DNA of 56,366 nucleotides. Source: Acidobacteriaceae bacterium (GTDB lineage Bacteria; Acidobacteriota; Terriglobia; Terriglobales; Acidobacteriaceae). The position numbers were made by a program, and so were the translations under genes. Below the pieces are notes generated by a model. It was not told where the DNA came from and searched no databases. It saw only the letters and a program-made list of their open reading frames with translations. Each line of letters starts with the position of its first letter. The stretch's first letter is position 1. Of the stretch, positions 849-14,413 are shown one piece after another. The DNA is taken from NCBI GenBank assembly GCA_025361625.1, contig JANYKL010000065.1, forward strand, positions 1-56,366. The letters run 5' to 3'.

Positions 849-2261
849 TTAATCAATCCTTATTGGCGTCGGATGCCATTCCACTCCGACTGAAAATACG
901 TTCCGTCGATCAAGCCGGCCGCAGCTGCCGGTAATGCAGACTGGAACATCAAAGGCGACTTCACTGAAGCGATAGGCGCCAAAAAAGTCGTAGGTCCGCC
1001 CATAATGCTTGCGCACCACGATGCCGGCCGAGCCCTCGTCATAGTTCGAAGCAGACGCTCCAAACAGAACCAGGTTCTGCAGCTTCTTGTTATGCGAGTA
1101 ACCAAGATCGGAATAGAAATCCCAGGTGCGGCCAAAGGGATGGCGGTAGCCGAGACGGATGGCTTGCGTTTCCGCTCCGGCAAAAAACCCCGAACCCTGC
1201 GAGGTGAATTTAACGTACGTGAGCGCCAGCGATGACCGCGGCCATTTGTAATGCAACTGTAGCCGCCCGCTCGCCGACCATTTATTGGAATTCCCGCCGA
1301 CTTCGAGTTGCGTATACTGCGGGCCCGCTCCGGCAATAAAACTCAACCGGCCGGTGATGTTATGGCTGTAACGCAGGTTGACGGTCTGAATGTAGATCTG
1401 TCCCCCACTCTGCTGCGGGAATTGTAGAAGTTGGAATGCGTAGACGACGCCCAGCTGATCGTGCCGCGATAGTAAATGACTGTAACCGCCCTCCGCCGTG
1501 TACTCGTCGCTGTTAACCAGGAAGTGCGTCGGATCGTAAAAATGCGCGTTGCTGAATCCGCCGGCAAAGGTTAATGCTGACCGCGGGCTGAGCGCCTGAA
1601 TCACGTTCAGAATGGCGGTGTTTGCCAGGCGTGGAATATTGCCAACGGAACCCAGTTGATTGTTTCCAACGTTAGTGCCCGGGACGCCGCCGCCGAGTCC
1701 GCCGATTCCAACACTGCCGGCTGCAATGCCGAATCCCGGTACTCCACCATAAGTGCCAAGCTGAAACGACCCATCAGGAACGTAACTGAATGCGTCACGG
1801 AGAGTTGCCTGTCCCGTCCGCCAGCGCGTCACGTAGTCGAAGCCTAGCGACTCCAGTTGCTTGACCTGGAAAGGATGGGCATAGAATGCTCCGCCACCAA
1901 GGTATTCGATAAAGAGGTCACTCTTTGGGTAGAACTTCTGCAGATCGAAGGCGCCTAACACGCGGCTGACGGACTGCACCCTGGTGTGGCCGAGCTCATT
2001 GCCGGCGTTCGTGTCGACCGACTCGCTGACCTGAATTGCCGGAGAAATAAAACTGCGACTCGCAGTTGGAAGTTCGAGGCGAGGCGCGTCCAACCCCGTC
2101 ACTGGCGGATTGTCCGGACTCAGCACTGGCGCGGTCTGGCCGAAACCTGGAACAGGAGGCGCGGTGTTCTCGTTTCCGGTGGGGGGAGTATTCTGCGCGA
2201 GCGCAGCAAGGCACAAGGCCATCATCAGAAGGGTCAGCCGCATTGTTCGCATCATCACCAT
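849..2261 (-). CDS. Outer-membrane beta-barrel protein of the exopolysaccharide locus
   Basis: The 470-residue protein has an N-terminal signal peptide (about residues 1-22, cut after ALAQ), a Pro/Asn-rich linker, and then many alternating hydrophobic/polar strands rich in Tyr, Gly and Ser. It ends in a strand-like segment (VFSVGVEWHPTPIRID). This is the pattern of a large outer-membrane barrel. Its place between the Wza-like exporter (56 bp upstream) and the GumC/Wzz protein (41 bp downstream) suggests a role in getting polysaccharide across or anchored to the outer membrane. I cannot name a family with certainty. The start is not fixed by a clear ribosome-binding site; ATGs at 2261, 2255, 2252 and 2243 are all possible and change only the n-region. 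Confidence 0.7.
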   Translation of the reverse strand: MVMMRTMRLTLLMMALCLAALAQNTPPTGNENTAPPVPGFGQTAPVLSPDNPPVTGLDAPRLELPTASRSFISPAIQVSESVDTNAGNELGHTRVQSVSRVLGAFDLQKFYPKSDLFIEYLGGGAFYAHPFQVKQLESLGFDYVTRWRTGQATLRDAFSYVPDGSFQLGTYGGVPGFGIAAGSVGIGGLGGGVPGTNVGNNQLGSVGNIPRLANTAILNVIQALSPRSALTFAGGFSNAHFYDPTHFLVNSDEYTAEGGYSHLLSRHDQLGVVYAFQLLQFPQQSGGQIYIQTVNLRYSHNITGRLSFIAGAGPQYTQLEVGGNSNKWSASGRLQLHYKWPRSSLALTYVKFTSQGSGFFAGAETQAIRLGYRHPFGRTWDFYSDLGYSHNKKLQNLVLFGASASNYDEGSAGIVVRKHYGRTYDFFGAYRFSEVAFDVPVCITGSCGRLDRRNVFSVGVEWHPTPIRID

Positions 2262-2317
2262 ATTTTATTTTCTATCCGCCGCCTCGCGACGTAACTCAAT
2301 CGCTGACGGGACATCGC

Positions 2318-2998
2318 TTACGGGACAACGATCGTATCCCCCGGTTTCAAGATGTAATTTTGTTCGATCCGCTCACCTTTTACGATCTTCCGATAGTCGA
2401 CCGGCAACTTCTGCTGCCGTCCATTCTCCGTGCGCAACACGTAAATGCCCTTTGTCTTGGCAAACTGATTGAGCCCCGCGCTTGACAGAGCCTGAAGCAC
2501 CGTCATATTCGGAGACAACGGTGTCGCTCCGGTATGCAATACCTCTCCGACAAGGTAAATCCGCTTGCTGTTGATGGTAGTGACAACCACGGTCACGTGC
2601 GGGTCGGCGATATATTTTCTCAGCTTCTCGGTGAGCGAGGCCGCCAGTTGCTGCGGAGTCATGCCGGACGCCTGCACGTCATTTAGAAGGGGCAACGAAA
2701 TCTTGCCGTCGGGACGAACCGGCAAGGTTGCGGTGAGATCGTTTTCCTTCCAAACCGCGACGTGGAGCACATCCTCGGGCCCGATGCTGTATTCGGCGCC
2801 GCCCATGCTCGCTTGCGCGGCAGGACTTTGCGGGACGGTAGTCGACCGACTGGTCGAGTCCGAAGCTGACGTGTAGGCGCCGTTCGAAGTCGTTTCGTTT
2901 GAGCTTGCCGGCGGCGGAGGGGGCGGTACGGCCTGTGACAGCGCGAACGCGCTGCTTAAACTGAGCGCCGCAACCGCTGTTTTCGATCTCCAATTCAT
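2318..2998 (-). CDS. Wza-type polysaccharide export protein (Poly_export + SLBB)
   Basis: This 226-residue protein has a signal peptide (about 1-23), a Pro/Ser/Thr-rich linker to about residue 65, a polysaccharide-export domain (about 68-140, starting YSIGPEDVLHVAVW) and a single SLBB-type beta-grasp domain (about 145-226, with IYLVGEV). Proteins of this type form the periplasmic/outer-membrane conduit for exopolysaccharide. No lipobox cysteine follows the signal peptide, so it is probably not a lipoprotein, unlike E. coli Wza, and may rely on the neighbouring barrel for the outer-membrane step (inference). A good Shine-Dalgarno sequence, TGAGGAG, precedes the ATG at 2998. It is the second gene of the minus-strand operon behind the regulator. 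Confidence 0.88.
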   Translation of the reverse strand: MNWRSKTAVAALSLSSAFALSQAVPPPPPPASSNETTSNGAYTSASDSTSRSTTVPQSPAAQASMGGAEYSIGPEDVLHVAVWKENDLTATLPVRPDGKISLPLLNDVQASGMTPQQLAASLTEKLRKYIADPHVTVVVTTINSKRIYLVGEVLHTGATPLSPNMTVLQALSSAGLNQFAKTKGIYVLRTENGRQQKLPVDYRKIVKGERIEQNYILKPGDTIVVP

Positions 2999-3060
2999 AT
3001 CTTCTCCTCAACTTGCAATCGTTCCAGACGACTCGTTCTTCAACCCGCCTGCTCATCTTG

Positions 3061-3105
3061 TGCTGCGTAATGCGGTGCTGCGTGGTGCGGTCGCGCGTGG
3101 TGCAG
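3061..3105. repeat. Three tandem copies of a 15-bp unit
   Basis: The spacer between the regulator stop and the Wza gene holds TGCTGCGTAATGCGG, TGCTGCGTGGTGCGG and TCGCGCGTGGTGCAG head to tail. Copies 1 and 2 differ at two positions; copy 3 is more divergent. It resembles slipped-strand micro-duplication; no function is evident. Confidence 0.75.
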
Positions 3106-3112
3106 CACTAAT

Positions 3113-4120
3113 TTATGTACCGTATTCCTGATAGCCAATCTGCTTCAATTTATAAAGCAGTGCCTTATAGCTGATCTTTAACTGCTCCGCCGCGCGACGC
3201 CGGTTCCAGCGTGTCTTCGTCAGGACCTGCAGGATAATCTCCCGCTCGACCTGGCGAGAGGCGGCACGGGCCGCGTCTTTCAAGGATATTGATTCGCCGT
3301 TGCTGCCGTGGTTCAGTGTGGGCCGCAAAAGCGACCGCAGTCCGCCCATTGCAAGGGCGTCATCCCCGATTGCAACAATGGCGCGAGCCGTATCCTTTAA
3401 CTCCCGCATGTTCCCCGGCCAGCTGTATTCCATGAAAAAGCTTCGCGTCTCCGCACTGAGCACGGGTATTGGGCGTCCAAGGTCCTGTGCAGCTCCGGCG
3501 ATGAACCAGTCCCGCAGCACCGGGATATCTTCTTTACGCTGCCGCAAGGGTGGAAGACGGAGGCAAACGCCGCTGATCCGGTAGTAGAGGTCTTCGCGAA
3601 AATTTCCGGCCACGACTTCGGGCTGCAGCTCCCGCGAAGTGCCACAGATAAAGCGAGGGGCGCGGTCGGGTCCGGAATTGTTTAGCTCGATTTGTCGAAA
3701 GAGCTCTTTTTGCGCCGCCGCTGACAGCTCTTCGACATCTTGCAGATAGACGGTGCCGCTTTTGCCCGGGCATGCTTCCAAAATTTCAGGTGAGGCTTCA
3801 CGGCCAAGAAAAGCCTGGAATGGCTTCGATGCGCGTTGCGAGAGCTTGTGAATTCGCTCTGCAGCGGCTGCCTTCCCTACCCCTCGCTCCGCGACCACGA
3901 GTACCGGAACATCGTTCTGCGCGAGCTCCCGAATCACCGCTTCGACGGTGCGCATGCCGGCACTGATACTTTCGACCCAGGCGCGGGAATTCAAGGCGAT
4001 GGGCCCGCCTTTCTCTGCGTGACTGGTTGCCAGCTTAGATTTCCCGAGATCCATGCTTTCGCGCGAACGTGTGAAAGGTTCTGTCCTAAAAGGCAAAACT
4101 GCCTCGGAAAGAGGCTGCAC
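3113..4120 (-). CDS. Divergent sigma-54-type AAA+ regulator with Fis-type HTH, lacking the GAFTGA loop
   Basis: This 335-residue protein has no receiver domain. An AAA+ module (about 45-265) is recognisable from NFREDLYYRI (173-182), LPPLRQRKEDIP (189-200) and WPGNMREL (234-241). A Fis-type helix-turn-helix (about 290-330) closes it. The ATP-binding core is degenerate: Walker A reads AERGVGKA (77-84) and Walker B reads TVYLQDVEE (123-131), where family members have LFLDEIGE-like sequence. The spacing from the Walker A lysine to the Walker B acid is about 45 residues, roughly 20 shorter than in NtrC. The missing stretch is where GAFTGA, the sigma-54 contact loop, normally lies. It probably still binds DNA, but classical sigma-54 activation is doubtful. 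It heads the exopolysaccharide operon and is divergent from the exosortase gene, so it likely regulates the locus. Confidence 0.82.
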   Translation of the reverse strand: MQPLSEAVLPFRTEPFTRSRESMDLGKSKLATSHAEKGGPIALNSRAWVESISAGMRTVEAVIRELAQNDVPVLVVAERGVGKAAAAERIHKLSQRASKPFQAFLGREASPEILEACPGKSGTVYLQDVEELSAAAQKELFRQIELNNSGPDRAPRFICGTSRELQPEVVAGNFREDLYYRISGVCLRLPPLRQRKEDIPVLRDWFIAGAAQDLGRPIPVLSAETRSFFMEYSWPGNMRELKDTARAIVAIGDDALAMGGLRSLLRPTLNHGSNGESISLKDAARAASRQVEREIILQVLTKTRWNRRRAAEQLKISYKALLYKLKQIGYQEYGT

Positions 4121-9183: not shown

Positions 9184-9211
9184 CGAAATATGAGGCTCGA
9201 AATATGAAGCT
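9184..9211. repeat. Two tandem copies of a 14-bp unit
   Basis: CGAAATATGAGGCT and CGAAATATGAAGCT sit head to tail with one mismatch. The second copy ends on the first base of the stop codon (read on the minus strand) of the neighbouring small secreted protein. Confidence 0.8.
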
Positions 9212-9609
9212 TAATGGCTGTGGCTTCCGGTGCTTTTCTGTTTCAGCCTACCCTTGTAAGGATCATTGGCCGTACGGTTCAACCCGCCGTTCGATTTCGG
9301 CGTACTGCCGTTGAAATTCATCGGAGGTGCGGGCTTGTCCCTTAATTGTGCTATTTTCATGGGCGGCTTTTTCTTTGCAGCAGCGTCCGGCTTGATGCCC
9401 CTGGCATTCTGACGCTCAACGAGTTGTAAGTCTTTGGCGTTGTTGCCAGCGGCGTTTGATCCTCCCACCGCCTTGCCTACTGGAACCGTGGCTGCACTCT
9501 TGGCCGGCCTGGAAGCGGTTTTTTTACCCTTGTAATAGGTAGTTTGTTGCGCCGGGGAAATAGCGCTCATTACGAGGATTAATGCTGCTGCTAGAGACAG
9601 TTTCATCAT
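9211..9609 (-). CDS. Small basic secreted protein, unknown function
   Basis: This 132-residue protein has a clear signal peptide (MMKLSLAAALILVMSAISPA) followed by a low-complexity, Lys/Ala/Asn-rich mature part with no cysteines and no predicted globular core, ending GSHSH. It looks intrinsically disordered and exported. I do not recognise a family. It is monocistronic, with the phosphopantetheinyl transferase on the same strand upstream (250-bp gap). The signal peptide and codon pattern make it a credible gene despite the lack of a domain. Confidence 0.6.
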   Translation of the reverse strand: MMKLSLAAALILVMSAISPAQQTTYYKGKKTASRPAKSAATVPVGKAVGGSNAAGNNAKDLQLVERQNARGIKPDAAAKKKPPMKIAQLRDKPAPPMNFNGSTPKSNGGLNRTANDPYKGRLKQKSTGSHSH

Positions 9610-9858: not shown

Positions 9859-10644
9859 CTACAGGGGAAACGAAAAAGTGTGAATGGATAGATGCAACGA
9901 ATCCACCGCGACGGCGGCTCGATATTCAGTACCCACCGCCAAATCCGTCAGAGACCAACGCAGGCCCGCTTCAGCACTACCTTTGATGTCTTCGACCACC
10001 GGGCACCTTTCTGGATGGACGCTCACCGAAAACTCGTTCAATGGGAACGAGAGCCCCTCTCCAATGGCTTTGATGAAGGCTTCTTTGCGACACCAGCAGG
10101 CAAAAAACGCGGGCAGCTGCATCGCTTCCGGCAAAGCTCGAAGTTCCCCCAGTTCGCGCTTAGAAAAAAAACGTTCCGATAGAGATTTCGTATCCAGATC
10201 ACCACGTACTTTCTCAATGTCAATTCCCAGTTGATGCCCGCTGCCAAAAGCGATTAAAGCTTGATCGCCCGAGTGCGCCACGTTGAAGCTCAATCGGTGT
10301 GGATTGTCGCTTATTTTCAAGCCAGGTTTCCCGTACTCAGAATATTCAAAGCCTACTTGTCGCGGCGGAACAGCAAGATATTGGCCGAGCAGCCGACGGA
10401 GAGCAGAACGGCAAGTAACGAACCTGTGCTTGTCCTTTTGAAACCGAAAGCGGTTGGCCCGAACTAGTTCCTCTGGCGACAAAAGGGTTTCATCGCTTTC
10501 CAGGGTCGTGGCCGCTTCAAGATGCAGGCGCCATACGTCCAAGCGATCGAGCGGGAGTGAAACCGGCGCCGCGGTAAGGCGCCACAGTGACGATGGGTCT
10601 GAAGAGGTGCTCAATATGAAGGTTTCCGATTGCGATTCGTCCAA
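9859..10644 (-). CDS. Sfp-type 4'-phosphopantetheinyl transferase
   Basis: The 261-residue protein has the three family motifs: FNVAHSGD (120-127), GIDIEKV (140-146) with the Mg-binding acidic residues, and WCRKEAFIKAIGEG (184-197). These enzymes move the phosphopantetheine arm of CoA onto a serine of carrier proteins, for fatty-acid, polyketide or peptide synthesis. No carrier-protein or synthase gene lies nearby, so it may be the general enzyme of the cell. The only usable start is TTG at 10644, since no in-frame ATG precedes the first conserved block. It is a stand-alone minus-strand gene. Confidence 0.9.
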   Translation of the reverse strand: MDESQSETFILSTSSDPSSLWRLTAAPVSLPLDRLDVWRLHLEAATTLESDETLLSPEELVRANRFRFQKDKHRFVTCRSALRRLLGQYLAVPPRQVGFEYSEYGKPGLKISDNPHRLSFNVAHSGDQALIAFGSGHQLGIDIEKVRGDLDTKSLSERFFSKRELGELRALPEAMQLPAFFACWCRKEAFIKAIGEGLSFPLNEFSVSVHPERCPVVEDIKGSAEAGLRWSLTDLAVGTEYRAAVAVDSLHLSIHTFSFPL

Positions 10645-11053
10645 CCGTGCATGAGCGGTATCGATCCGCCAACTGCCTCAAATTTCTAAGGGAGATCGCA
10701 CGGTAATCCGCTCAAAAGCATATTTGGAGCGGGTGGGACGGAGTCGTCACCGCCGCTGTGACCCTGGTCGGGCCCATCGCCTACTTCACCCGCGTTATAG
10801 GAAAAAAGGTTCTGACCATGAACGCACCATCAGATTACCCTATTGGCGCGAAGAACGGAAAATCGGACGTAACCCGACTTAACCCTTGGTGGACCGAAAG
10901 TTGTCGGTGGCAAAATGATCTTGGAATTTGCGCAACCGGGGAAGACGGCGCGGTGAGTGAACCCTTGGGACTGGACCTTCCATCAGGCCCTGACCTTTAC
11001 TTCTCTTTTACTCTGGTACTAGGTCTCAATAACTTTACTCTGGTACTCAGGCA
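10645..11053. other. Intergenic stretch, no supported gene
   Basis: This is a 409-bp gap between two minus-strand genes. It contains a 27-bp-spaced direct repeat (annotated separately) and the likely promoter of the phosphopantetheinyl transferase. A plus-strand reading frame crosses it but runs antisense through the end of the pseudokinase gene and resembles no protein family. Confidence 0.5.
11007..11047. repeat. 14-bp direct repeat with 27-bp period
   Basis: TTTACTCTGGTACT occurs at 11007-11020 and again at 11034-11047. The bases after each copy (AGGTCTCAAT and CAGGCATCAAT) are also partly alike, suggesting a decayed 27-bp tandem duplication. It lies just beyond the stop codon of the pseudokinase gene. 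Confidence 0.75.
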
Positions 11054-12589
11054 TCAATTTTCGCGTGTCGCCGAAGCTTCGGTCCCGCCGCGGGTAAAAG
11101 CAAAGAGCAATTTCACGGATCGATTTCCGTTCTGCGCCGGAGAAAACTTCCAGTCACGTGCGGCGTCCATCGACAGCCTGGAAAAATATTTACTCGGTCC
11201 TGGGGACTCGAAGCGGGCATTCGACACGTTGCCCTCTTCATCGACGTTCACCCGGATGCGCACTTTGAGCGTGCCGTGAACCGTGCGCAGCGCACTCGGG
11301 GAAATTTGGGGCATCACGCGTTGCACGACTCCGGCATCCGAACCGCCTTTGGCAGCGTCGGCGACTGCCGTTCGCGATGAGTCGGCAGGCGAACTTGATG
11401 CGCGGCTCGATTGTCCACCCAATGATCCACCCGATGGGGCGCCCGATGAACGGCTCGCTGAAGAGCGACTCGTCGCCCCGATCGCTGCTCCCGCGCCAGC
11501 ACTCGAGTCTGGCTGCGAGTTTGGCGATTCCGATCCTGACTGCCTGGCCGATCCTGACTGCGATTCACTTACGGGCTGCTCCGTGGGTTGGGGGGTACGC
11601 TTAGAGCGGCCAAAAAGAATTAATGCGACGATGGCGATGGCCGCGACAGCCGCCCAGATTGGCCATTTTGGCTGGATCTTTCGGTGAGGGGTTGCCGGGA
11701 CAAGAGTCGGTCGCGGCAAGTCGCGTGAAATAGTTTGGCTTTTCACCGTTGCAGACACAGGAACCGTGGGGACAGCCGGCCGAGCGGGAGTGACTGGCGC
11801 AGTCGTTTGTGACTGAACAGTTGGACGACTCGCGATTCCCGGATTCGCAGCGATTCCCCGACGCAGCTGACCTACAGTCGAGCGTCGAGCCGGGTCCAGC
11901 GCCAGGCAATTTCTAACCAGCTCGCGAAATGTTTCCGGAACGCTCTCCGAAAGACTTTGACCGCTTTGTCCAGGACCGGGGCGACGTTGGGTCAGAGCCT
12001 CCACCAGCGTCACTCCGAATTGCCAGACGTCTGTGGCGACTGAGGGAGCAACTTTCCCAGCTTCGGGCGGGTCGTATACGCTTGCGACACTGGAGTCTAC
12101 CTGCTCACCCTGCCGCAAAAGACTATCGCTCGAAAGCTTTACGCGGTCTCCGATTGCCAGGATGTTGGTCGGCTTAATCCGGTTGTGAATAAAGCCCCTA
12201 CCGTGCGCGAAATCCAAACTTTCGAGAACGGATGGCATCGTGGCCCGAGCCTCTTCCGCGGTCAATGCGCGGTCGGCTAAAACCTGACCAAGATTTTCGT
12301 CAGCGTATTCCATCACGACATACAACATGCGCACGCCGTCGAGATCGCACTTACCGGAGTCGAGAATGCGAATGAGGCGGGGGTCGTCAAGATCGGATAT
12401 TTCCCGCCAGCGTGTAATCTGGGCATCGAACAATGAGGCGGCCGGCGCAGTCAACTTGATCGCAGCCTTCGTTCCATCCGGGGCGACCGTCAAGAAAACG
12501 GCGCTGTGGTCGGATCCGCCCAAAAAAGCCTGCAGTGGATATTGATTGTTGACAGTACGGCCTTGCCACTGCCTCCAGCCTTCACTCAT
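11054..12589 (-). CDS. Pseudokinase-transmembrane-TonB C-terminal fusion protein
   Basis: The chosen start (MSEGWRQWQGR) gives 511 residues. Residues 12-245 have the fold of a Ser/Thr protein kinase: GGSDHSAVF as the glycine loop, AIK with Lys45, and DVWQFGVTLVEAL for subdomain IX. The catalytic loop reads HNRIKPTN (135-142), with Arg where the catalytic Asp should be. The metal-binding DFG is replaced within LSSDS (152-156). Phosphotransfer is therefore unlikely. A Pro/Thr-rich linker, one membrane helix (310-327), a long Ser/Gly-rich periplasmic linker and a TonB C-terminal domain (about 430-500, with VDEEGNV and AARDWKFSPA) follow. It may relay a cytoplasmic signal to an outer-membrane partner. 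Longer in-frame starts exist at 12622 and 12754. Confidence 0.82.
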   Translation of the reverse strand: MSEGWRQWQGRTVNNQYPLQAFLGGSDHSAVFLTVAPDGTKAAIKLTAPAASLFDAQITRWREISDLDDPRLIRILDSGKCDLDGVRMLYVVMEYADENLGQVLADRALTAEEARATMPSVLESLDFAHGRGFIHNRIKPTNILAIGDRVKLSSDSLLRQGEQVDSSVASVYDPPEAGKVAPSVATDVWQFGVTLVEALTQRRPGPGQSGQSLSESVPETFRELVRNCLALDPARRSTVGQLRRGIAANPGIASRPTVQSQTTAPVTPARPAVPTVPVSATVKSQTISRDLPRPTLVPATPHRKIQPKWPIWAAVAAIAIVALILFGRSKRTPQPTEQPVSESQSGSARQSGSESPNSQPDSSAGAGAAIGATSRSSASRSSGAPSGGSLGGQSSRASSSPADSSRTAVADAAKGGSDAGVVQRVMPQISPSALRTVHGTLKVRIRVNVDEEGNVSNARFESPGPSKYFSRLSMDAARDWKFSPAQNGNRSVKLLFAFTRGGTEASATREN

Positions 12590-12827
12590 ATCTTCTGTCC
12601 GTCGTCTCGCTGTCGTATTCATGCGATCTATATTGTAAGTGAAAGCGCGGTAGAGGATCATTGAAGGGCTAAAAATCCTTGGGCCGCACTTCTGCATGCT
12701 AGCTAGTTGACCTGAACTAATATTCAGACGAAATGACCATTCTGACCCTCGCATGGCAGCGCTTTCCCCGTCGCTCCGGGCGTAACGTCACGTTTTTAAA
12801 TCCGTCAACATAGCCCGTGACACGACT

Positions 12828-12857
12828 GTGACGGGCTTCGGACTTGCGCTCTACAAT
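12828..12857 (+). promoter_or_regulatory. Putative sigma-70-type promoter for the PPOX gene
   Basis: GTGACG (12828-12833), an 18-bp spacer and TACAAT (12852-12857) give a plausible promoter 26 bp before the ATG at 12884. The -35 region overlaps the right arm of an inverted repeat, AGCCCGT (12812-12818) and ACGGGCT (12831-12837), which could be an operator. Confidence 0.4.
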
Positions 12858-12883
12858 ATCGATACCACCCTATTCGACATCCC

Positions 12884-13255
12884 ATGCCGCCCATTCCCTC
12901 TGAGATTCACGGCCAGCGTTATATTAGCCTGACAACTTATCGAATGGTGGGGACGCCGGTCCGCACGCCGGTATGGTTTGCCGAAGAGAATGACAAGCTC
13001 TACTTCATGGCGAACGCCAAGTCATGGAAGGTGAAACGACTGGGCAACGAAACGAAAGTCAGGATTGCTCCCTGCACAATCCGCGGCAAAATTACCGGTC
13101 CCGAGTTTTCTGCGACCGCGCGCTTTCTAGCGCCCGAGGAATATGCCCAGGCCCGGCGTGCGATCAATCAGAAATATTGGCTGGCGAGAATTCCATTTGT
13201 AAGGAGCAAGAACAACAAGTACGTCGAGCTCACAATGTCACAAGAACAAAGCTGA
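12884..13255 (+). CDS. PPOX-class flavin/F420-dependent oxidoreductase
   Basis: The 123-residue single-domain split-barrel protein carries the family pattern ISLTTYRMVGTPVRTPVWFA (residues 14-33), then KLYFMANAKSWKVKRL and VRIAPCTIRGKITG. These are typical of pyridoxamine-phosphate-oxidase-like proteins annotated as PPOX-class F420-dependent enzymes. They act on varied substrates using FMN or F420; the cofactor cannot be decided from this sequence. The gene is upstream of gap on the same strand, separated by about 150 bp, and probably has its own promoter. Confidence 0.82.
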   Translation: MPPIPSEIHGQRYISLTTYRMVGTPVRTPVWFAEENDKLYFMANAKSWKVKRLGNETKVRIAPCTIRGKITGPEFSATARFLAPEEYAQARRAINQKYWLARIPFVRSKNNKYVELTMSQEQS

Positions 13256-13402
13256 CGGAGTCGCAGATGTGGAGGCATACCGCTGGCTGTGGCCAAAGAG
13301 ATGGCTAATGTTTACGCCTCCCATTCAGCCCTGATACCATCGATGTCGGCACTGTCATAGGGGCTACCTTTCCGCGAACCGCAATCTCTTCTTGGAGGAT
13401 GA

Positions 13403-14413
13403 ATGGCAATAAAAGTTGGAATCAACGGGTTTGGCCGTATCGGACGAAACGTCTTTCGCACCGCGCTTGCCGACAAGAATCTGGAGTTCGTCGCGGTCAA
13501 CGACCTCACCGACCCGAAAACCCTTGCCCATCTGCTTAAATACGATTCCATCCTCGGCAATCTTCCACACCAGATAACGGCCGGAACCGACAGCATCTCG
13601 ATTGATGGCAGGGTAATCAAGGTGTTTAAAGAGAGGGACCCGGGCGCGCTGCCGTGGGATTCAGTTGGAGCTCAGGTTGTCGTCGAATCGACTGGGCACT
13701 TCACGGACGCTAACGATGCAAAAAAACATTTGCGCGGATCGGTGAAGAAAATCATCATCTCGGCGCCTGCAAAGAACGAAGATCTTACTGTCGTGCTTGG
13801 CGTCAACGATGAGAAGTACGACGCGGCAAAGCATCACGTCATCTCGAACGCATCCTGCACGACGAACTGCCTGGCGCCAATCGCCAAGGTGATCAACGAT
13901 AACTACAAGATTGTCAGCGGGACCATGACGACGATTCACTCTTACACCAATGACCAGGTGATCCTCGATTTCCCACACAAGGATTTGCGGCGCGCCCGGG
14001 CGGCGGCGATCAACATGATCCCGACTTCGACTGGAGCGGCGAAAGCATTGAAATTGGTAATTCCTGACCTCGCCGGCAAGCTTGACGGTTTCGCCATGCG
14101 CGTGCCGACTCCGAACGTATCGGTCGTCGATCTCGTCGCCTTTGTGGAAAAGAAAACATCCAAGGAAGAGGTCAATGCGGCTTTGAAGAAGGCCTCCGAG
14201 TCTGGTCCTCTCAAGGGATACCTTGGATTCGAAGAGAGCGAACTTGTCTCCTCCGACTTTAAAGGCGACTCCCGTTCCTCAATTGTCGATTCTCCAATGA
14301 CGCTCGTCGTTGGAGGAAATTGCGTGAAGGTCATCTCCTGGTATGACAACGAGTGGGGATATTCCTGCCGCGTGCGCGACCTGATCAATATGCTTGGCGC
14401 TAAGGGTCTTTAA
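13403..14413 (+). CDS. gap: Glyceraldehyde-3-phosphate dehydrogenase, type I
   Basis: The 336-residue enzyme has the N-terminal NAD-binding motif INGFGRIGR (7-15) and the active-site sequence [12 protein letters not shown] with catalytic Cys152. Length and motifs are standard. It oxidises glyceraldehyde 3-phosphate to 1,3-bisphosphoglycerate with NAD and phosphate. A strong Shine-Dalgarno sequence (TTGGAGGATGA) precedes the ATG. The stop codon is one base from the ATG of pgk, so the two consecutive glycolytic steps are made from one transcript. Confidence 0.98.

Follow-up and report, generated by a model that had tools for sequence, protein, structure and literature searches.

A conserved family of predicted membrane pseudokinases in Acidobacteriota with TonB-type or SPOR-like outer domains

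We analysed a stretch of 56,366 nucleotides from contig JANYKL010000065.1 of an Acidobacteriaceae genome (assembly GCA_025361625.1), hereafter called the window, and focused on one gene on its minus strand (11054–12589). The 511-residue chain encoded by this gene (plus a stop codon) comprises a pseudokinase, one membrane helix and, beyond a disordered linker, a C-terminal domain with the TonB fold; this architecture is established in silico. The same features are present in 70 further loci, and chance is therefore excluded. A conserved pseudokinase family with exchangeable outer domains, TonB-type in some lineages and SPOR-like in others, appears to be what is new here.

The gene was delimited from its open reading frame (ORF) and an orthologue alignment. 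The ATG at 12589 was preferred as its start because it is common to the orthologues; a longer mechanical start at 12754 was not matched by them. The kinase-fold domain (residues 1–248, 11846–12589) matches Pfam Pkinase over residues 23–242 (E 3.1e-17; 63.3 bits vs. a cut-off of 31.7). An AlphaFold2 model built on a 63-row alignment (A2) shows two well-predicted domains (residues 1–248 and 421–510) with a single helix (residues 311–326) between them and disordered linkers; the block means of the predicted local distance difference test (pLDDT) are 80–98 for residues 1–250, 86–97 for residues 421–510, and 39–54 for the linkers. Alignment A2 left out five rows without a tail (L060, L070, L075, L098, and L105), two without a head (L084 and L085), and one that holds X (L065). 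Comparison of the kinase part with Aurora A and PknB gave VIA Z scores of about 25; PknB is also the top Foldseek match, and StkP ranks first among PDB matches by sequence. We set the membrane helix at about residues 309–326 (11612–11665), and a Ser/Gly-rich linker, which would be periplasmic, covers residues 327–420 (11330–11611), with block pLDDT of 39–54 from residue 331 on.

The initial annotation had read the chain as a kinase-like part, a membrane helix, a linker, and a TonB C-terminal domain, and had singled out residues 430–500 as the segment whose fold should be checked. Both the order and the fold held up. The C-terminal domain (residues 421–510, 11060–11329) exceeds the cut-off of NCBIfam TIGR01352 (TonB C-terminal; 33.9 vs. 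27.1 bits), and its match to Pfam TonB_C lies just below the cut-off of 24.6 bits in the protein itself (E 1.9e-4, 22.3 bits) and just above it in a genome search with neighbours (24.7 bits). A 64-row profile (alignment A4 has 64 rows, including L108, which is not a family member) reached TonB2 (2k9k) by sequence at E 1.8e-7, along with other TonB structures. The final 101 residues modelled alone had a pLDDT of 88. Against known structures, the nine highest-ranking VIA matches of the C-terminal model were TonB C-terminal domains (Z 10.0–8.1), an unrelated structure first appeared at Z 6.1, and Foldseek assigned it to TonB with probability 1.00, yet its best E was only 1.2e-3, with no row reaching 0.001. 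Pfam searches of the window protein returned no PASTA domain at E ≤ 1 and no SPOR match.

Residue losses were counted in 71 sequences, namely the window protein and the 70 loci with a family ORF over 300 bits, and all positions were read from the family alignment. The kinase-like motifs described in the initial annotation, HNRIKPTN in place of HRDxKxxN, SDS in place of DFG, and a retained ATP-binding Lys45, are all as stated. The beta-3 Lys45 (12455–12457) is K in 68 sequences and R in 1, with a gap in 2. Within HNRIKPTN (residues 135–142, 12164–12187), the catalytic Asp is Arg137; this position holds His in 33 sequences, Arg in 32, Asp in 1, and some other residue in 5, so that the Asp is absent in 70/71, whereas Asn142 is kept in 71/71. 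In SSDS (residues 153–156, 12122–12133), Ser154 stands at the DFG Asp position, where no family member has Asp (0/71), and an invariant Asp155 follows one residue later, at the Phe position (71/71). L091 alone in the family has an HxD catalytic loop (HGDLRPAN), and its DFG is still lost. Close homologues with intact HRD and DFG in the same architecture, which the initial annotation had named as contrary evidence, are missing from the family (0/71); proteins of that kind exist further away, in two loci outside it (L169 and L184).

The Gly-loop and the alpha-C helix were mapped in 49 rows (32 TonB-type and 17 SPOR-type) set against 30 active Acidobacteriota kinases. The second Gly of the loop is altered in 29/32 TonB-type and 17/17 SPOR-type rows and the third in 27/32 TonB-type rows, and according to the alignment the alpha-C Glu falls inside a four-residue deletion in 49/49 pseudokinase rows, a deletion also present in an active relative, L126. 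Judged as an active Ser/Thr kinase, the window protein thus has the beta-3 Lys and lacks the HRD Asp, the in-register DFG Asp, and the alpha-C Glu. In the SPOR-type rows, the beta-3 Lys is replaced by Arg in 17/17, the Asn is lost in 4/17, and the shifted Asp is kept in 17/17. Omega, the ratio of nonsynonymous to synonymous rates, ranged over 13 close pairs of our choosing from 0.03 to 0.29 for the kinase, from 0.05 to 0.72 for the C-terminal domain, and from 0.20 to 0.68 for the linker. Since the residue losses are shared and omega in the kinase part is well under 1, the sequences indicate that this is a maintained pseudokinase family under purifying selection, not a decaying gene.

A protein search found a relative in 19/23 genomes of the same genus, with best segments 43–55% identical; aligned over their full length, 16 genus relatives share 38–50% identity with the window protein, while two others are truncated by contig ends. 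One further genus relative, L024, has a frame that ends after 261 residues, and a TonB-type tail is absent among that genome's matches. No copy was detected in 4/23 same-genus genomes, three of which are 71–76% complete and one 98% complete. The single-protein search returned only ordinary kinase matches in 17 genomes outside the genus, and a first single-protein scan of genome contigs gave no relative. The contig scan with alignment A1 returned 74 loci, from which the 70 were taken; L107 (split into two ORFs of about 207 bits), L108, L109, and L113 were excluded, and second pieces of interrupted genes (L070, L075, L085, and L105) were not counted. The contigs are titled Acidobacteriaceae, Terriglobia, Candidatus Sulfotelmatobacter, Candidatus Acidiferrum, Acidobacteria gp1 and gp2, Bryobacterales, and similar. 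The contig that carries one member (L060) bears the title Xanthobacteraceae, which probably reflects a binning error. When 297 genomes were sampled evenly across the phylum, matches at E ≤ 1e-20 appeared in 245, nearly all of them to kinases in general; the full TonB type over 400 bits occurred in at least 3 of the 297 (the window's genome, G047, and G114), a figure that is a lower bound because only the five best candidates were scored per genome. The sample also contained a divergent form with a TonB-type end (L120 in genome G301).

The outer domain differs in sister genera. Seventeen of their proteins (L117–L119, L121–L125, and L127–L135) share the N-terminal motif and the pseudokinase and have another ending after the helix. 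Pfam SPOR matched 15/17 at E ≤ 0.1, the last 80 residues being SPOR-like, and SPOR was the best match in 10/10 domains that were scanned alone (of the 17), 6 of them above the cut-off, with a best E of 1.4e-6. This assignment rests on Pfam, because the search of PDB sequences found nothing. In one genus, five further genomes have matches that cover positions 1–447 of the 448 in the SPOR-type profile; of the 25 genomes searched with it, 20 had no match at E ≤ 1e-15, and these include the four same-genus genomes that lack a TonB-type copy. By our count, the 36 same-family genomes of the phylum-wide sample comprise 3 with the TonB type, 22 with the SPOR type, and 11 with no clear member.

A kinase tree, built by a quick search without bootstraps, included 29 of the 71 rows, L114, L116, and L120, and the SPOR-type rows. 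The 32 TonB-type rows group with the 17 SPOR-type rows in a single clade, with a support of 99 in the Shimodaira–Hasegawa-like approximate likelihood ratio test (SH-aLRT), and the SPOR type is one clade within it (100); monophyly of the TonB type had a support of 0. The next relative of the pseudokinase clade is the active kinase L126 (support 98), whose ORF (1477–3555 of its locus) has a C-terminus that resembles beta-helix repeats by eye. The simplest inference is that the SPOR-like tail came later and took the place of another ending, because the TonB type also occurs in L120, which belongs to another family group, and in Bryobacterales.

The topology was read from residue composition. Over the 71 rows, a few of which have no tail, Cys occurs at 1.07 per 100 residues on the kinase side and at 0 on the C-terminal side; in the 17 SPOR-type rows, the values are 0.61 for the kinase part and 0. 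The net charge is +2.4 before the helix and +1.2 after it. Together with the nature of the domains, the Cys and charge bias suggests that the kinase is probably cytoplasmic and the tail periplasmic.

The motor motif of TonB proteins has the spacing Ser-x3-His. A relaxed form of this motif, S-x3-[HQ], was found in 0/68 family helices (68 of the 71 rows could be scored), the window protein included. Among other TonB_C ORFs of the same genome it was present in 8/13, 6 of them with His; these 13 were read out of 15, L148 and L153 not being whole, and among them L151 is truncated at the start and the helix of L152 is poor. It is through such a Ser/His motif (SHLS) that the TonB helix is described to bind its motor (PMC12204202). 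No exbD-like ORF was found in the available flanks (up to 9 kb; 3 kb or more on both sides in 46/71 loci) of any of the 71 loci, exbB not being sought, and the same flanks held no other ORF matching the family's TonB-type profile. A TonB gene need not be linked to exbBD. In the window's genome, which has 16 TonB_C ORFs with the window gene scoring lowest, contig C159 carries the second-strongest of them close to two exbD genes. ORFs resembling TonB-dependent receptors were found, as a raw count, in the flanks of 5/71 loci (L052, L089, L094, L100, and L102). In L089, the receptor-like ORF (10140–13334) comes next downstream of the pseudokinase gene and shares its strand, and in the other four loci it lies on the opposite strand. 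The helix motif, the linkage, and the genome content together ruled out ExbBD-driven energy coupling as the leading reading. The initial annotation had also imagined a cytoplasmic module acting on an outer-membrane or energy-coupling partner; a probably cytoplasmic module is indeed joined to an envelope module, whereas the energy-coupling half of the idea is not supported, given the missing motif, the lack of exbD-like ORFs in the available flanks, the separate TonB beside exbD, and the SPOR-like domain of sister genera. An outer-membrane partner might still be bound with no input of energy.

On balance, we favour the view that the protein is a pseudokinase scaffold that crosses the inner membrane once, that its periplasmic head senses the envelope or anchors to it, and that ExbBD does not drive it. 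The cytoplasmic kinase fold, without the ordinary phosphotransfer residues, would be a platform for docking or allostery; its partner would most likely be an active Ser/Thr kinase of the cell or else another cytoplasmic protein. On its flexible periplasmic tether, the TonB-fold domain would bind an envelope ligand, either peptidoglycan or an envelope protein, and binding would report the state of the envelope or fix the position of the protein. The envelope role is suggested because sister genera carry a SPOR-like domain in the same place, and denuded peptidoglycan glycans are the described ligand of SPOR domains (PMC6895207); the TonB-type head could, by the same logic, have peptidoglycan or an envelope protein as its ligand. 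Peptidoglycan binding has been reported for ExbD (PMC10771500), and our literature search found no paper on peptidoglycan affinity of TonB. Precedents for a role without catalysis include the membrane pseudokinase EssB/YukC, which scaffolds a secretion system, and MviN, a pseudokinase that is phosphorylated by PknB, recruits FhaA, and restrains peptidoglycan synthesis, both as summarised in a review of bacterial pseudokinases (PMC12599244).

Several observations weigh against this scaffold reading. The beta-3 Lys and Asn142 are kept in the TonB type and would be superfluous for a pure scaffold, which makes nucleotide binding conceivable. Positive charge is also found after the helix, and low-complexity linkers seldom contain Cys. 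The SPOR calls are weak, with 4/10 domains below the cut-off, and the SPOR-type profile had no match at E ≤ 1 among PDB sequences; moreover, a SPOR tail shows that an envelope-binding domain is possible at this place, not that the TonB-type domain binds peptidoglycan. Clustering of the neighbour ORFs of the 71 loci, in search of an operon partner, revealed no conserved gene that would indicate a partner, so far as the flanks reach, and both ligand and partner are inferred only. The family is also narrow within the phylum.

A more ambitious version, which we regard as tentative and clearly less probable than the plain scaffold, holds that these proteins are a Gram-negative counterpart of PASTA kinases: pseudokinase receptors with interchangeable heads (TonB-fold or SPOR) that would read the state of the wall and signal to active cytoplasmic Ser/Thr kinases, with the TonB fold serving as a wall or envelope sensor without energy coupling. 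The kinase fold would be stabilised by an unusual salt bridge between the beta-3 Lys or Arg and the shifted Asp. We propose this bridge by analogy with DYD pseudokinases, where a modelled salt bridge between an Arg and the motif's second Asp may replace the alpha-C Glu (PMC12599244).

Some of the same evidence can be read in other ways. The C-terminal domain might dock without force, as a non-energised dummy TonB that attaches by strand addition to the TonB boxes of receptors or to other outer-membrane proteins and signals to the cytoplasm whether they are occupied. Such docking needs no motor, the fold has the conserved motifs S-K-Y-F, W480, and F482, and there is precedent, as C-terminal domains of TonB and TolA are described to bind their targets by beta-strand addition (PMC12204202); the receptor genes, on the other hand, show no consistent link (5/71), and the SPOR-like domain of the relatives suggests a wall ligand, which makes this account rather improbable. 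Less probable again is an unorthodox enzyme in which Lys45, Asn142, and the shifted Asp155 bind a metal-nucleotide and phosphate or adenosine monophosphate is transferred. In its favour, 68 of the 69 rows without a gap at position 45 have the Lys, N142 and D155 are invariant (71/71), the gene is under purifying selection, and the bacterial pseudokinases SidJ and SelO are listed as having acquired new activities (PMC12599244). It is opposed by an HRD Asp that is His or Arg in 65/71, the degenerate Gly-loop, and the loss of the alpha-C Glu. Moreover, D155 persists in the SPOR type despite the Lys-to-Arg change in 17/17 and the loss of Asn in 4/17; because it is kept there without Lys and in part without Asn, D155 is more likely structural.

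That the protein is a true TonB energy transducer, in which the pseudokinase gates force on an outer-membrane receptor, we consider very unlikely. The fold itself fits, a linker with a median of 72.5 residues (range 33–135) could span part of the periplasm, and the receptor-like ORFs near 5/71 loci, with that of L089 directly downstream on the same strand, point the same way; this is a raw count, however, and the motor motif is missing in 68/68 helices, the available flanks of all 71 loci are without an exbD-like ORF, a separate TonB stands beside exbD in the genome, and relatives have a SPOR-like domain instead. Least credible of all is a decaying relic without function. Multiple motif losses, the lack of a detectable copy in 4/23 same-genus genomes, and the frame of L024 that ends at 261 residues would suit it, but 71 loci in several lineages, a kinase omega well under 1, and two folded domains that are intact in most members do not.

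Known systems share parts of this design. PASTA kinases such as PknB and StkP have an N-terminal kinase, one membrane helix, and a small extracytoplasmic domain, an order that the window protein resembles; they differ in that the window family has neither the catalytic residues nor a PASTA match, and its outer domain is TonB-fold or SPOR-like. DedD, DamX, and FtsN are built of a cytoplasmic part, one helix, a linker, and a SPOR domain, as is the sister-genus type, except that the cytoplasmic part here is a pseudokinase and the window protein ends in TonB_C. The TonB and TolA force transducers share the C-terminal fold, whereas the window family is without the motor motif and an exbD link, and about 300 residues precede its helix. 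In E. coli, the SPOR proteins DedD and DamX are described to interact with and stimulate wall synthases (PMC7642682).

Bacterial pseudokinases are said to be little studied experimentally in a 2025 review, whose main text does not contain the words TonB, SPOR, periplasm, or Acidobacteri (PMC12599244). The families ActPs1–3, GLW, CP1, DYD, and DLHK described there have a degenerate kinase fold too, with a C-terminal membrane region in several, and the ActPs3 member MviN is likewise tied to the control of peptidoglycan synthesis; the motif sets that we compared differ from those of the window family (PMC12599244). According to the same source, DYD pseudokinases have a beta-3 Arg and a DYD motif and come from actinobacteria or firmicutes, whereas the window protein has Lys and SSDS and its relatives are titled Acidobacteriota; ActPs2 members have a beta-3 Arg and HRN, in place of which the window protein has Lys45 and HNR; and CP1 members have a linked COG3899 domain and no membrane helix, whereas a membrane helix is present in the window protein (PMC12599244). 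EssB/YukC is similar as a single-pass membrane pseudokinase whose scaffold role needs no catalysis, and differs in belonging to the type VII secretion system; our comparison of it with the window protein was by domain searches only (PMC12599244). A kinase-TonB or kinase-SPOR membrane protein was not described among the open-access literature matches listed, although domain-architecture databases may list the combination.

Other proteins combine a TonB_C tail with a signalling domain. A profile of the TonB-type domain matched in 32/119 genomes, and 5 of the 28 ORFs read hold a kinase domain. Two of these, L169 and L184, from other Acidobacteriota families, are the kinase-helix-TonB_C proteins with HRD and DFG intact mentioned above, the N-lobe of L184 falling outside the locus; L172, L181, and L186, which come from one family group and sit on a long branch, have a degenerate kinase, a helix, a charged segment that looks coiled-coil-like by eye, and TonB_C. 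Because all five fall outside the window family in the kinase tree, this architecture seems to have arisen more than once. In the window's genome, the ORF at 817–1728 of L155 (contig C21) encodes PilZ, a membrane helix, and TonB_C without the motor motif, possibly a cyclic di-GMP receptor with the same tail logic. Another ORF, at 1489–2859 of L149 (contig C24), has a receiver-like N-terminus, a membrane helix, and TonB_C; the receiver was assigned by eye, with no Pfam match for that part at E ≤ 0.01.

The surroundings of the gene vary between lineages. In the window, neighbour clustering and Pfam identified a divergent PNPOx-like ORF (12884–13255) and gapA (13403–14413), which make up the plus-strand context at 12884–14413. 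A gapA-pgk pair is found in 12 loci (with tpiA in 8), a SpoU methylase in 9, with a response regulator in 11 and a histidine kinase in 9, and dnaX in 7; gapA, SpoU, the regulator, and the histidine kinase were identified by Pfam on one example each, and pgk, tpiA, dnaX, and others by our reading of the sequences. As a raw count, 5/71 loci (L064, L090, L098, L103, and L104) have another Ser/Thr kinase ORF in their flanks. In L103 and L104, both from Bryobacterales, the kinase ORF has HRD/DFG-type motifs and lies shortly upstream on the same strand, that of L103 being split into two ORFs. A promoter scan gave no more hits than shuffled sequences, and a terminator scan gave nothing. A 132-residue ORF on the minus strand of the window (9211–9609) has a signal-peptide-like start by eye and no Pfam match at E ≤ 1e-4.

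Taken together, the family is a natural experiment in which one pseudokinase stem carries either of two outer domains. With it, one can test whether C-terminal domains of the TonB type also act as plain envelope sensors, and the family's invariant shifted Asp offers a clear mutational handle on how a kinase fold is maintained without the usual catalytic residues.

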